Shown one piece after another: positions 52,872 through 63,950 of a stretch of DNA of 64,000 nt. Within the stretch, counting starts at the first letter, position 1; each line of letters begins with the position of its first letter. The position numbers and the translations under genes are program-made. Origin of the DNA: Desulfuromonadales bacterium (GTDB lineage Bacteria > Desulfobacterota > Desulfuromonadia > Desulfuromonadales > Geopsychrobacteraceae); contig JAFGEL010000065.1 of assembly GCA_016931615.1 (NCBI GenBank), forward strand, positions 61,718 through 125,717, in the 5' to 3' direction. The notes under the pieces were generated by a model that saw nothing but the letters and a program-made list of their open reading frames with translations, was not told the DNA's origin and did no database searches.

Positions 52872-55800
52872 ATGAAGGTGACGGTCGTAAGACGTGGACA
52901 AACCTCAGCAGATCGGGTTGATATTTATCAGCCTGAGTTAATTGAACAGGAACTGATCCGTCAGGGGCAGGCGAGTGGCTTGCCGGTCTACCTGAAACTG
53001 GCCACCATTCTGCGCCAGGAAATTCCAGAAACACTGCTGTTGCCGTTCAGCCTGTCTGATCTGGTCGAAAACTTGCGTCAGGCCGGGGATTTTCTGTTTC
53101 AGGCTGAGGATGAGATTGAAGTCGAAATCAAGGCTCTGAAAGAGCCGGGGCATTATTATCTTTTTACTCATTCGCCTGATGCGAATCACATCTTCTTTTC
53201 GTTGCAGGAATATCTTCATCGACGCTCCTTGCACTTTCGTGTCATCTGCCATCCGATCCTGTCCGTCAAACGGGAAAATGGCCTCATTCAGCAAGTTGAT
53301 GAAGGGGCCAGTGACCTGCCTCGAGAGTCTTTTGTCTGGATGGAACTGGAGCGTTTTCCGGCCAGAATGATCGATGGACTGAAACAGGCGATCAAAACAA
53401 TTCTGTCAGCCGCCGTGACGGCTTATCGGGACCGGCCGAAAATGTTACAGAAAATCGCTGCCCTGGGTGCGGTAAAAGGCCTCGAGCAGCATCAGGCCCT
53501 GTATGACTGGTTACAGGAGGAAAATTTTATCCCTGTTGCGACGCGCAGCTATGTCTATGCAAAGGATGCTGACGTGTCGGGATTCAAAGAAGAAAGCGAA
53601 CAGTCTCTCGGCCTTAAGGAATTCTACCGTCAGCCTTTCCACAAGGCGGACCATGCGGTTACTCTGACCCCCGAGACGGTTTTCCCACTGTTGGGTCATG
53701 GCAAAAATGTGGACCTGGAAAAAACCGATCTGCGCTGTCCCCTGCATCGCTTTGAACGTTTGACTTATCTGGGTTTCCGTGAACAGTTGGACGAGGGCCG
53801 GTTTCGTGAACACTGCTTCTTCGGGTTCTACACGCAAAAAAGCATCGATGAAAATACCTTTACCATTCCGACCCTGAAGAAAAAAATCGAACAGGCCCAG
53901 CTCGAACTGAAAATACCCCATGACAGCCACAATTATCGCAAAACTGTACAGATCATTAACAGTTTTCCGAAAATCGAGTTGTTTTTGATGGGTGCCGAAG
54001 ACCTGCGCCGCATGATCCGCTCATTTACCCAGATGCATCGCCAGGCCGGTGTCAAGGTGGTCATCGCTCCGAGTGCCTCGGAAACCGGTATTACCCTGCT
54101 GTTGATCATGCCGAAAGACTACTATCTGCCCGAGCATATCGAGCGTATGGAAGTTTATCTGCGGCGCTATTTCAAAGCCGTCAGTGTCGAAACGCGGCTG
54201 ATCCACCTGGCTTCAGACTATCTCAGTCTGCATGCGAATATTCAGCTGCAGAAAAAGGCAATTCAGATCGACCTGACCCAGCTTGAGCAGGGGCTGACGC
54301 GTCTGGCCATGCCGTGGAAACTGAAATTCAGGGAATTGCTGGAAAAACACTTTGCCGACGATTCCTTCAGTCTGTGGGAGCGCTACATCAAGACATTCCA
54401 TGTTGATTACCGCGCCAGAACCCATCCCCGCTTTGCCGTACGGGATGTGAAAAACCTTGAATCCCTGTTGCGCAACAAACAGGACGCTTTTGATTTGTGG
54501 GGACCTTTTCACGAGCAGGATGATTACTACCGGCTGCAGTATTACAGTCTCAGGCGCAGTTATCTGAATGACCTGATGCCGTTTCTTCAAAACCTCGATT
54601 TGTGTGTCCTCCATGAGGTCGATTCCGACCTGCAGATCGATGGTGAATCGGTTTATATCAAGAGCTTCGCCATCAGGCTCAACAGTGCCAAAAGCCTGCC
54701 TTTCAAGCAGATCAAGGGCCTGCTGCTCGAAGCCCTGCTGGCCCTGCGGAATAACGAAGTCGAAAATGATTATCTCCACCGGCTGTTACCGTTGACCGGT
54801 CTGTCCTGGCGTGAAATCGATGTCTTCCGCGGCTACCGTAATTACTATTTCCAGCTTGGCAGCCCGTTTACCAAAAAGCGGGTCGCCGATGCCCTGATCA
54901 ACAACGCCAAGGTTTCACACCTGCTTTATCGCTATTTCGAGGGTCGTTTCAAGCCGTCCGCCGATTGGACCGATCCGATGACCCGCGAAATCGAAGTCTT
55001 ATCTCCGATTCGTCAGGAACTTGCTGCGGCACTGGAAGAGGTCAGTGATCCCAACGAGGACAGAATTTTACGCACGCTGTTCAACCTGATCGACTCGACG
55101 ATCAGAACCAATTTTTACCTGCGTTATCAGCAGGACGATTATTTCTTCTCGTTCAAGGTCAGCTCACTGGGCATCATCGACATGCCTTCGCCCCGGCCGC
55201 TTTATGAAGTTTATGTGCATTCGGCGAAAATGGAGGGCGTTCATCTGCGTGGCGGCAAGGTTGCGCGGGGTGGAATCCGCTGGTCGGATCGTCCCGATGA
55301 TTTCAGAACTGAAGTGCTTGGTCTGGTGAAAGCTCAAATGACCAAGAATGCAGTGATCGTCCCCGAGGGTTCAAAGGGCGGTTTCATCACTAAGGAATTC
55401 AGCCCTGACCGTGAGCAGATGGGGGAAATTGTCAAAACAGCCTACCAGACTCTGATGCGCGGATTGCTTGATCTGACGGATAATCGCACCGCCGATGATA
55501 TTGTGCGGCCGGAAGGCATTATCGCTTATGATGACCAGGACCCCTACCTGGTTGTGGCTGCAGATAAGGGAACCGCACATTTGCCTGATACGGCCAATGC
55601 GGTCAGCGACTCCTACGGTTTCTGGCTGGGTGACGCCTTTGCCAGCGGGGGATCGCACGGCTATGATCACAAAAAGCTGGGGATTACTGCTCGTGGGGCC
55701 TGGGAAAGCGTCAAGCGCCTGTTCCGTGAAATGGGCCATAATATCCAGGAAGAGCCCTTCACAGTAATCGGCATCGGTGACATGAGCGGCGATGTGTTCG

Positions 55801-57638
55801 GCAACGGCATGCTCCTTTCCCGTCAAACCAAGTTGCTCGGGGCCTTTGACCATCGGCATATTTTCCTTGATCCGAATCCTGATCCGGAAACCTCTTACCA
55901 GGAACGCCAGCGGCTCTTTAACCTGCCGCGTTCAAGCTGGGAAGACTACAACAAAGACCTGATCTCTGCCGGCGGCGGCGTCTTTTCACGACAGCTGAAG
56001 GAGATCCCGCTGTCGCCTGAAGTGGCCGGCTGGCTGGGGATAAAATCGCAGAGTATTGACGTCCCCGGTCTGATCAAGCTGCTGCTGACCGCTCAGGTTG
56101 ATCTGCTCTGGAACGGCGGTATCGGGACCTATGTCAAGGCATCGACTCAGAGTAATGAAGATGCCGGTGACCGGGCCAACGACGCCGTGCGGGTCGATGC
56201 TACGGCACTGCGGGCTAAAGTTGTCGGTGAAGGAGGCAACCTGGGGCTGACCCAACTTGGGCGGATTGAATATGCCCTTAATGGCGGAAAGATCAATACC
56301 GACGCCATCGATAACTCCGCCGGAGTGGACAGCTCGGACCATGAAGTGAACCTGAAAATTCTTCTGCGCCAGTTGCGCCATGAAGGGCGGGTGAAAGATC
56401 TGGATGAGGGCTATGCTCTCCTTGAAGAGATGGAGGAAACCGTCTGCCAGGATGTGCTGGCCAACAATTACGGCCAGACGCTGTCCCTGTCTCTCGATGA
56501 ACTGCGCTGTGCAAAAGACGTTGAACCGTTCCTCGACCTGATGGATCGTCTCGGCCGTTCCGGACTGCTGGATCGGCGTGGCGAGTTTCTCCCCAGTCGC
56601 AAGGAGGTGTCGGCGCGTCAACCCAACCGTCTGCTGAGACCGGAACTCTCGGTGTTGCTGGCGTACAGCAAGATGTTCCTCTTCAAAGCACTGCTTGATA
56701 CCGACCTGCCTGACAACAAGGTTATTCGGCAGCTGCTGTTCGACTATTTCCCTCAGCAGGTGATCGACCGTTACAATGATTCACTGCCGCGTCACCCGTT
56801 GGCGAAAGAAATCACGGCGACGATGTTGACGAACCGGGTGATCGATCAGGCCGGGAGTGCTTTTTTACAGACCATCAGTCGGCTGACCGACAGCACTCAG
56901 GTCGAAGTAGCCAACGCCTACCTGATTTTTGACAGTCTGTTGACCGGGGAAGAGCTGCGCAAAGCAGTTTTTGCTCTTGATAACAAGATGTCTTCAGATC
57001 GGCAGTACGAGCTGTTGATGACGCTGGAGGACCTGCTCAGTTCATTCTGCTCCTATGCGTTGAGCAACAACATGGTGATACCGTCCTCTGAAGAGGAACT
57101 GGCAAGAATTAACCAGCAGCTACTCGATTATGCGCAGATGTTGCCGAAAGTTCTCCCCGCTGCGGCTTGGGAACGTTGTAAACAACGTACAGCCCAGCTC
57201 AAGGAAGAAGGGCTTGAACATGAAATCGCCTTCAAATTTGCCGTGCTCGATTTCCTCGTCGATTTCCTTCCCCTGATCTGCATGGTCAAAAGCTCCGGAC
57301 AAAATCTTGAAGATCTGGCCGCGATCAGGGTGCTGGTGGAAAATAAAGTCAACAGCCGGAAAATTCTGGCCCTGCTTGAAAAGGTTACGATACGCGACAA
57401 TTGGGATCGTCGGGCACGGGAATCGCTGGTCAGCTCGCTGCATGCCGTCAATGTTCGCCTTGTGCAGCAGGTTGCCCAGGAATCACCAGGCAATCCGGAG
57501 AATTACTTTTCCCAACGGCGTCAGAAAATGCGCAACTACGATAGTCTGCTGCAGACATTGATGGCCGAAAAACCCAGTAACTTCCATCCCTTCACCGTGG
57601 TGTTGAGAACCCTGGAGAGTCTTTTAATCAGCCACTGA
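52872..57638 (+). CDS. NAD-specific glutamate dehydrogenase, large (180 kDa) type
   Basis: A 1588-residue enzyme of the Bac_GDH family, deaminating glutamate to 2-oxoglutarate with NAD. The N-terminal ~700 residues are the regulatory ACT-like and helical part. The catalytic core (about 720-1230) shows KVARGGIRWSDRPDDFRTEVLGLVKAQM (read in parts), the Lys site in VPEGSKGGF, IGIGDMSGDVFGNGM for NAD binding, and GEGGNLGLTQ. The long helical C-terminus is standard for the family. It is preceded by a 120-base gap and ends at its own terminator, so it is probably monocistronic. Confidence 0.95.
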   Translation: MKVTVVRRGQTSADRVDIYQPELIEQELIRQGQASGLPVYLKLATILRQEIPETLLLPFSLSDLVENLRQAGDFLFQAEDEIEVEIKALKEPGHYYLFTHSPDANHIFFSLQEYLHRRSLHFRVICHPILSVKRENGLIQQVDEGASDLPRESFVWMELERFPARMIDGLKQAIKTILSAAVTAYRDRPKMLQKIAALGAVKGLEQHQALYDWLQEENFIPVATRSYVYAKDADVSGFKEESEQSLGLKEFYRQPFHKADHAVTLTPETVFPLLGHGKNVDLEKTDLRCPLHRFERLTYLGFREQLDEGRFREHCFFGFYTQKSIDENTFTIPTLKKKIEQAQLELKIPHDSHNYRKTVQIINSFPKIELFLMGAEDLRRMIRSFTQMHRQAGVKVVIAPSASETGITLLLIMPKDYYLPEHIERMEVYLRRYFKAVSVETRLIHLASDYLSLHANIQLQKKAIQIDLTQLEQGLTRLAMPWKLKFRELLEKHFADDSFSLWERYIKTFHVDYRARTHPRFAVRDVKNLESLLRNKQDAFDLWGPFHEQDDYYRLQYYSLRRSYLNDLMPFLQNLDLCVLHEVDSDLQIDGESVYIKSFAIRLNSAKSLPFKQIKGLLLEALLALRNNEVENDYLHRLLPLTGLSWREIDVFRGYRNYYFQLGSPFTKKRVADALINNAKVSHLLYRYFEGRFKPSADWTDPMTREIEVLSPIRQELAAALEEVSDPNEDRILRTLFNLIDSTIRTNFYLRYQQDDYFFSFKVSSLGIIDMPSPRPLYEVYVHSAKMEGVHLRGGKVARGGIRWSDRPDDFRTEVLGLVKAQMTKNAVIVPEGSKGGFITKEFSPDREQMGEIVKTAYQTLMRGLLDLTDNRTADDIVRPEGIIAYDDQDPYLVVAADKGTAHLPDTANAVSDSYGFWLGDAFASGGSHGYDHKKLGITARGAWESVKRLFREMGHNIQEEPFTVIGIGDMSGDVFGNGMLLSRQTKLLGAFDHRHIFLDPNPDPETSYQERQRLFNLPRSSWEDYNKDLISAGGGVFSRQLKEIPLSPEVAGWLGIKSQSIDVPGLIKLLLTAQVDLLWNGGIGTYVKASTQSNEDAGDRANDAVRVDATALRAKVVGEGGNLGLTQLGRIEYALNGGKINTDAIDNSAGVDSSDHEVNLKILLRQLRHEGRVKDLDEGYALLEEMEETVCQDVLANNYGQTLSLSLDELRCAKDVEPFLDLMDRLGRSGLLDRRGEFLPSRKEVSARQPNRLLRPELSVLLAYSKMFLFKALLDTDLPDNKVIRQLLFDYFPQQVIDRYNDSLPRHPLAKEITATMLTNRVIDQAGSAFLQTISRLTDSTQVEVANAYLIFDSLLTGEELRKAVFALDNKMSSDRQYELLMTLEDLLSSFCSYALSNNMVIPSSEEELARINQQLLDYAQMLPKVLPAAAWERCKQRTAQLKEEGLEHEIAFKFAVLDFLVDFLPLICMVKSSGQNLEDLAAIRVLVENKVNSRKILALLEKVTIRDNWDRRARESLVSSLHAVNVRLVQQVAQESPGNPENYFSQRRQKMRNYDSLLQTLMAEKPSNFHPFTVVLRTLESLLISH

Positions 57639-57661
57639 GCTGATAAGCACTATGCTTGTTT

Positions 57662-57694
57662 ACAAGGGCGGACCGGTTCCGCCCTTGTTTCTTT
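57662..57694 (+). terminator. Intrinsic terminator after the glutamate dehydrogenase gene
   Basis: A perfect 11-bp stem (ACAAGGGCGGA / TCCGCCCTTGT), loop CCGGT, followed by TTCTTT. Confidence 0.9.
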
Positions 57695-57701
57695 GCACCG
57701 G

Positions 57702-57978
57702 TGTCTTTGTCGGCAGAATGGCGGAGGTAAACAAGGTTTCAGGGCTGATCTCGGGGCGAAAAGTGACTGGACAGAGAAATAACGCCTATGTTATATCGAG
57801 AACGCCTTTCACAGGGGAGCAGGTTGGCCCGGGACACGTACCGGAGCCGCTTTTGCTTGCCCCCCGTGGCATAACATACCGCCTGGATCGAATGACGACC
57901 GGGACGGAAGGTTTTACAGCTCATGCCGAAGACATTTTTTGTCTTACGCCTTTCGTTTCGATGAAGGGCTTTTTTTTT
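57702..57978 (+). ncRNA. Candidate structured RNA or leader between gdh and panB
   Basis: The 354-base gap 57639-57992 holds no believable gene. Read as RNA it can fold into a long rod. Outer pairing joins TGTCT..TCGGCA (57702-57715) to TGCCGA-AGACA (57924-57934). GAG-GTAAAC pairs with GTTTTAC..CTC. TATGTTAT (57787) pairs with ATAACATA (57871), enclosing GGGGAGCA/TGCT..CCCC and a GGCCCGG/CCGG-a-GCC tip. AAGACA could instead pair with TGTCTT at 57940-57945. A terminator ends it, 15 bases before panB. It may be a free small RNA (a 6S-like rod is one guess) or a panB attenuator. Pairings were drawn by eye. Confidence 0.35.
57948..57978 (+). terminator. Intrinsic terminator immediately before panB
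   Basis: A 7-bp stem with one G-T pair (GCCTTTC / GAAGGGC), 8-base loop, then nine T residues. The T-tract ends 15 bases before the panB GTG, leaving room only for the AGGGA ribosome site. Transcripts from upstream must read through it to express panB. Confidence 0.78.
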
Positions 57979-57992
57979 GAATAGGGATTGCT

Positions 57993-58796
57993 GTGGTTGC
58001 GAGAAAAACAATTCTTCAGATAATGGCCATGAAGGAGCGGCAGGAGAAAATTACTGTTCTGACTGCCTATGATTATCCCTTTGCCAAACTCATGGACGAA
58101 GCTGGAATCGACATGATTCTGGTTGGTGACTCGGTCGGTTCAGTGGTCTCCGGCTATGAGAATACCCTGCCGGTGACTCTTGATGAGATGATCTACCATA
58201 CCCGGGCTGTTGTCAGAGGCAGCCGACAGGCGCTTATTGTCACTGATATGCCGTTCATGTCCTATCAGGCTGATATTCGCGATGCCCGTCTCAATGCCGG
58301 CAGGCTGATCAAGGAAGCCGGAGCTCAAGCGATCAAGCTTGAAGGTGGGGAACACATGGCAGCGACGATTCGTGCCATCGTTGATATTGACATCCCGGTT
58401 GTCGGTCATATCGGTTTGACACCGCAATCGGTTCACCGCATGGGGGGCTTTCGCGTTCAGGGGCGCGAAGAAGAACAGGCCCGCAAGATAATCGCTGATG
58501 CCAAAGCGGTTGAAGCGGCCGGCGCCTTTGCCATGGTTCTGGAAGGGATTCCGCGTGATCTGGCTCGTCAGGTGACTGAAACTGTGACGATTCCGACAAT
58601 CGGAATCGGTGCCGGAGTCGACTGTGACGGACAGGTTCTGGTCATCCATGATATTCTTGGGCTGTGTGATAAATACTCACCAAAATTCGTCAAACGCTAT
58701 GCCGATGTCTCGGGTATAATTACCGAAGGCATTGAAGCCTATATCAAAGACGTCAAAGAACAAAAATTCCCGACGCCGAAACATTCTTTCAAATAA
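57993..58796 (+). CDS. panB: 3-methyl-2-oxobutanoate hydroxymethyltransferase
   Basis: A 267-residue TIM-barrel enzyme making ketopantoate from 2-oxoisovalerate and methylene-tetrahydrofolate, the first step to pantothenate and CoA. TAYDYPFAKL, the Mg-binding LVGDSVG, and GIGAGVDCDGQVLVIHDILG are family signatures. GTG start with AGGGA upstream. First gene of a pan operon; preceded by a terminator-bearing leader. Confidence 0.95.
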   Translation: MVARKTILQIMAMKERQEKITVLTAYDYPFAKLMDEAGIDMILVGDSVGSVVSGYENTLPVTLDEMIYHTRAVVRGSRQALIVTDMPFMSYQADIRDARLNAGRLIKEAGAQAIKLEGGEHMAATIRAIVDIDIPVVGHIGLTPQSVHRMGGFRVQGREEEQARKIIADAKAVEAAGAFAMVLEGIPRDLARQVTETVTIPTIGIGAGVDCDGQVLVIHDILGLCDKYSPKFVKRYADVSGIITEGIEAYIKDVKEQKFPTPKHSFK

Positions 58797-63599: not shown

Positions 63600-63950
63600 G
63601 GGGGTGTCAAGGTTTCGACGGGGGACGGAAACGAAGGTCGCATGCCGGAGTGGGCTGGCTCCGTAACAAAGCCCAACTTAACTAAACGCAGACTCTGACG
63701 TTAGTTACGCATTAGCAGCTTAATGCTGCTACGTCCTTGTATTCATCGCCTGTGTGGGTGCCGGGACGTTAATTGAGCAGGCTAGTCATGAAGACAGACT
63801 GCGACTTCATGGCGAAACTTTAGCAGACTCGCCTGGTGGATATCCTGTCTGTGGGAGCTTCATCCGGTTAAATTAATTTGCAGACTAAGCATGTAGAAGC
63901 CTTACGTGGAAAGCTTTCGGACGCGGGTTCGATTCCCGCCACCTCCACCA
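63600..63950 (+). ncRNA. ssrA: Transfer-messenger RNA (tmRNA)
   Basis: A one-piece tmRNA of 351 bases that rescues stalled ribosomes with SmpB. The 5' end GGGGGTG pairs with CACCTCC at the 3' end, followed by A and an encoded CCA. The T-arm is GCGGGTTCGATTCCCGC. The D-loop region TCAAGGTTTCGACGGGG is the conserved tmRNA start. The tag reading frame (63688-63723) runs GCA GAC TCT ... GCA GCT TAA, encoding ADSDVSYALAA, with the usual YALAA proteolysis signal. Pseudoknot-rich sequence follows. No split (two-piece) processing is indicated. Confidence 0.97.

Follow-up and report, generated by a model that had tools for sequence, protein, structure and literature searches.

A pan-motif RNA and probable transcription attenuator in the panBCP leader of a Desulfuromonadales bacterium

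Genes and features at the locus

In the window (the whole stretch of 64,000 nucleotides that was analysed, to which all positions refer), panB begins with a GTG codon and occupies 57993-58796 of the + strand as the first gene of panB-panC-panP, the NCBIfam bit scores being 363.8 for panB, 332.3 for panC, and 873.8 for PanP. Comparison of PanB places Desulfuromusa, Malonomonas, and other Desulfuromonadales as the closest named relatives. From the stop codon at 57638 to the GTG at 57993 there is no convincing gene, and an earlier note on this DNA was right to describe a gene-free stretch between two terminators: a terminator-like hairpin (57662-57688, + strand) lies 3' of the preceding 1588-aa gene, upstream of the conserved promoter and outside the leader, and a second hairpin (57948-57969), followed by nine T residues, stands before panB. 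The 1588-aa gene itself (52872-57638) looks by eye like an NAD-glutamate dehydrogenase ("gdh"), no NCBIfam match at E<=0.001 having been found for it, and its homologues precede panB in most relatives of the family. Further downstream, at 63600-63950, the window holds a tmRNA gene (197.5 bits).

As the note had also proposed, the region is highly structured: the + strand of the leader folds at -103.5 kcal/mol compared with -93.4 kcal/mol in shuffles (z -2.1, 5/200). A leader on the minus strand was rejected, its fold being no better than that of shuffles (z -0.9). An ORF of 110 aa (57652-57984) runs across the region and is not favoured as a gene, given the conserved promoter, the covariation of an RNA type, and the many different leader lengths.

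The pan motif

The Rfam model of the pan motif (RF01749) matches 57826-57911 (+ strand) over its complete length (1-92), scoring 36.1 bits, where the gathering score is 36.2, with an E value of 1.9e-4 in 801 bases. A default Rfam scan of the window returned the tmRNA only, pan falling 0.1 bit short, and it was a scan of the region that recovered the motif. The element is very probably a member of the pan class, an orphan cis-regulatory RNA found upstream of panB, with a score at the threshold. The statement in the earlier note that no known riboswitch class could be recognised is literally fair, pan being an orphan candidate, yet Rfam does include the element; the covariance-model search suggested there came back empty for 6S RNA (RF00013, nothing at E<=10 across 57400-58200) and gave pan as above.

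Hairpin 1 has its core (GGCCCGG..CCGGAGCC) at 57826-57848 with a bulged A57845, and hairpin 2 (CCGCCUGGAUC..GACCGGGACGG) occupies 57879-57907 with A57887 and A57904 bulged; both are on the + strand and were defined by the RF01749 match and by covariation. In an alignment of 56 leaders (A1), the pan hairpins and the terminator consist of standard pairs in 97.5% of cells, and their covariation (0.193) exceeds that of shuffled alignments (0.127; 0/500), with far lower values for slid controls. Covariation in relatives, on whose presence the earlier note had made its proposal depend, was thereby found. Hairpin 2 is paired in 99.6% of cells and nearly invariant in both sequence and structure, and hairpin 1 in 97.4%, the 5' bulged A of the Rfam model not being clearly retained in the latter.

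Beneath its core, hairpin 1 stands on a strongly covarying, lineage-specific lower stem, built on the + strand from 57814-57824 (GGGG A GCAGGU) and 57855-57864 (GCUUGC CCCC) and recognised by fold and covariation; the second strand follows a 5-nt internal loop on the 3' side (57850-57854). When the flanks were swapped between genomes, the mean energy of the duplex went from -14.4 kcal/mol to -8.7 kcal/mol (0/3000 permutations), and swaps confined to each of four taxonomic groups gave 0/2000 in every case. At least five contiguous pairs adjoin the hairpin 1 core in 82% of leaders versus 33% after swapping, and each of the first five positions shows all six pair types. The sequence of the stem is variable, and a 3' internal loop of 4-6 nt is usual. 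The model RF01749 begins inside this stem, which is missing from it. The inner rod of the earlier note (57787-57878) therefore survives in its inner part (57814-57864), but its outer arm ATGTTAT (57788-57794) largely belongs to the -10 region.

Promoter and predicted start of the transcript

Promoter scoring of the leaders points to a -35 box TGGACA (57768-57773, + strand) and, after an 18-base spacer, an extended -10 box TG-T-TATATC (57789-57797, + strand), which is kept in several relatives without pan. A score of at least 9 of 13 was reached by 80 of the 88 leaders with a scored site and by 36 of 940 mononucleotide shuffles, and the blastn similarity of the window leader to its nearest relatives starts at about 57757, where the promoter begins. 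Since this promoter is conserved, the RNA probably starts near 57801-57804 (+ strand, AACGC...), as judged from the spacing to the -10 box; no start is predicted downstream of 57878, which the earlier note had named as evidence against its view.

The placement of the start bears on several pairings that the note had listed. All of its complementary segments exist as sequence, but they were not confirmed as parts of one RNA. The closing stem (57702-57715 with 57924-57934) could not form in the transcript of this promoter, because its first arm lies upstream of the predicted start and of the conserved promoter, and the alternative pairing of AAGACA with TGTCTT is likewise left without its upstream partner.

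Downstream of the promoter, many families share a conserved AACGC(T)n element in the start region (57801-57811 in the window), which two relatives (L238 and L239) have kept although their leaders have lost pan and the terminator. The element is perhaps an initial transcribed sequence subject to slippage.

Terminator and antiterminator

The intrinsic terminator (57948-57978, + strand), defined by its sequence and by covariation in A1, comprises the hairpin at 57948-57969 and a U9 run at 57970-57978, which ends 14 bases before the GTG of panB. Its 5' arm, GCCUUUCGU (57948-57956, + strand), is complementary to ACGGAAGGU (57904-57912, + strand), a putative switch strand that takes in the base of hairpin 2 and the conserved tail that follows it (CGGAAGG, 57905-57911). 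Complementarity and fold thus make these the 3' and 5' strands, respectively, of a predicted antiterminator.

In A1, the eight core pairs of the antiterminator are formed in 95.1% of cells (40-65% in slid controls), with a covariation of 0.172 compared with 0.146 when shuffled (0/500). Of 27 further leaders, taken from beyond the first set and including Firmicutes, 26 also have the antiterminator, though a few of these entries repeat a leader. The pairing extends from Desulfuromonadales to other Desulfobacterota and to Firmicutes, and some lineages show compensatory changes: AAGAC/GUCUU in one genus of family f4, a re-registered GGCAGU/ACUGCC in family f12 and, outside the order, ACAGAGGG with CCUUCUGU in L202 and GACGGAAAUAGC with GCUCUUUUUGUC in Fusibacter. 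Most Firmicutes of the class of G137 carry the tail GACGGAAGGU and a terminator arm [AG]CCUUUC[CG]G.

Swap tests gave weak covariation (189/5000 for the core version, 101/5000 for the second set), both strands being strongly conserved, so the case for the antiterminator comes mainly from conserved complementarity together with a few compensatory lineages. The first such test, with long flanks, gave no signal (own -14.31, swapped -14.30), partly because six terminators had been mislocated and the flanks add noise.

Folding of the window leader agrees with a choice between two states. For a transcript that ends past the terminator 5' arm, the antiterminator is the fold adopted, its pairs having probabilities of about 0.65-0.87, whereas little energy separates terminator and antiterminator in the complete leader (-69.6 and -70.0 kcal/mol for the two states). 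At equilibrium, the full-length fold has a terminator pair probability of only about 0.33, since the 3' arm of the terminator has an alternative partner in the 5' end of the RNA, GCCUUUCA. A conserved antiterminator that is mutually exclusive with the terminator apparently precedes panB.

Distribution among relatives

Of the 136 genomes of the order, 97 gave a pan match at E<=1, in 39 of them above the gathering threshold. The match almost always lies immediately 5' of panB, and the arrangement of pan ahead of panB-panC-panP is common to nearly all relatives that have one. In the Firmicutes class of G137, all 10 of 10 genomes have pan. Of 26 members of the order without a match, 16 possess panB. 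Read by eye, four of the 16 panB leaders carry a divergent pan with a terminator, one is cut by the contig end, and in the remaining 11, all readable, neither pan nor terminator was seen. The joint absence of the two from these leaders supports pan and the terminator as one unit. The same leaders (L235-L239 and L241-L246), several of which have kept the promoter, are natural constitutive controls.

Proposed mechanism and its alternatives

The region is very probably the 5' leader of panBCP, a pan-motif RNA joined to an expression platform, which would act as a transcription attenuator in which an occupied pan domain favours termination. With a promoter, pan, antiterminator, and terminator before panB in almost every relative that has a match, one of the two options in the earlier note, in which the leader makes the choice between terminating and expressing panBCP, is supported.

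Transcription would begin near 57801-57804, and the polymerase would make the tandem hairpins in turn, hairpin 1 on its lower stem and then hairpin 2. With the pan domain unoccupied, the strand at 57904-57912 would capture that at 57948-57956, the terminator would be blocked, and panBCP would be transcribed. A factor, either a protein or some metabolite from the pantothenate/CoA pathway, may instead stabilise hairpin 2, its basal pairs and its bulged A, and so weaken the antiterminator; the terminator would then form, and transcription would stop at about 57978 to leave a short RNA of about 175 nt. The direction suggested here follows from the overlap of the two structures: since formation of the antiterminator opens the basal pairs of hairpin 2, a stabilised hairpin 2 should favour termination. 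The factor, the lowering of expression by its binding, and the exact start and end of the RNA are the parts that we infer.

With regard to the factor, the chances are not far short of even that the same leader and attenuator respond to a dimeric protein, for example a self-regulating enzyme of the pathway, which binds the pan hairpins in place of a small molecule. This explanation competes over the factor only and leaves the anatomy of the attenuator unchanged. Weinberg et al. (2010; PMC2864571), who described pan as tandem hairpins with bulged A residues upstream of pantothenate genes, suggested a dimeric protein-binding motif on the basis of these simple hairpins and their bulges, and reviews from 2022 (PMC9971707; PMC10043782) state that no CoA riboswitch is known, an absence that has been called a blind spot, with about 100 orphan candidates left. 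The near-invariance of hairpin 2 and the shortness of both hairpins also fit a protein, but the lower stem makes hairpin 1 exceed a minimal protein site, though it is compatible with either kind of factor. It is possible, if rather doubtful, that pan is a metabolite riboswitch for an intermediate or the product of pantothenate/CoA synthesis, with a terminator/antiterminator platform that crosses phyla and an extended hairpin 1 that Desulfuromonadales need for folding; in that event, constructs without the lower stem or the tail might show no binding.

The same anatomy could work in the opposite sense, an occupied pan domain preventing termination, which we consider unlikely. The direction of switching is unreadable from sequence alone, and the terminator and antiterminator energies are near equal; against this, the antiterminator strand shares CGG (57905-57907) with the base of hairpin 2, so that a stabilised hairpin 2 competes with the antiterminator, and genes of vitamin biosynthesis are usually under feedback repression.

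A classical riboswitch, in which a P1 helix of GCCUUUC (57804-57810) and GGAAGGU (57906-57912) closes both hairpins, is improbable. The helix is present in the minimum-energy fold of the window leader and is a good best duplex in several genera, but across 75 leaders own pairs do no better than swapped ones (-6.47 vs -6.30, 548/3000), and the 5' AACGC(T)n is also kept in relatives without pan. A general P1 helix formed by the 5' end of the RNA was set aside on this result.

The other option of the earlier note, a stand-alone rod-shaped small RNA, was unsupported. Such an RNA, of about 175 nt and ending at 57978, with panB served by another promoter, would account for a promoter and a strong terminator that flank a structured RNA, but it is highly improbable, as the element directly precedes panB in almost all relatives and no second convincing promoter lies between the terminator and panB (the search gave one 9-of-12 match, inside panB, and shuffles give as many). 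A 6S RNA or another known rod-shaped RNA can practically be dismissed despite the rod-like fold, as no 6S covariance model matches at the locus and the genome has two separate 6S genes above the cut-off elsewhere (L031, G000:C27:5740-5920; L032, G000:C92:154186-154363).

Relation to known systems

The attenuator reading has a familiar counterpart in OFF-type riboswitches with terminator platforms (such as those for TPP, FMN, or lysine in Firmicutes), in which an aptamer, a switch strand shared with the antiterminator, and a terminator precede the gene. The leader resembles them in its aptamer-like domain, its shared switch strand, and its terminator 5' of the gene, and both parts of a terminator platform are present: an intrinsic terminator 5' of panB, and an antiterminator whose formation excludes it. 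It differs in that a conserved closing P1 helix is unsupported and in that pan is an orphan class.

The leader shares with RF01749 (PMC2864571) the two tandem hairpins with bulged A residues, the conserved 3' tail GAaGG, and the position upstream of panB, whereas hairpin 1 of the order has RAC..GUR where the Rfam model has the apex UAUC..GAAC, and the long covarying lower stem has no counterpart in the model, the window score standing at the threshold. The class has been known since 2010, and pan is listed in 5' UTRs of Bacillus and Paenibacillus in RNA-seq papers. A described expression platform for pan was not found in the searchable literature and may exist in subscription papers or supplements. 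The proposed expression platform and the lower stem are detail beyond the Rfam model.

The locus is an ordinary setting of a known orphan RNA, here probably as a transcription attenuator of panBCP, and it matters mainly as a view of how the pan class probably works. The conserved pan tail would be explained as an antiterminator strand; the tail in this role and the lower stem together define the RNA construct to test, with termination as the read-out, which makes the orphan directly testable.

The pan RNAs of Firmicutes (L142, L164 from Fusibacter ferrireducens, and L222-L230) have the same hairpins, and in them, too, the conserved tail has its partner in the 5' arm of the following terminator. 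They differ in that, in the leaders read, hairpin 1 begins only about 13 nt after the -10 box, which leaves no room for a lower stem, and in that, at the two loci whose ORFs were listed, a dehydrogenase-like gene stands first in the operon, ahead of panB. Besides the motif before its panB operon, Fusibacter ferrireducens has a second one (L191, G136:C2:84966-85052), which scores 44.1 bits at a locus where no panB, panC, or panP match was found.
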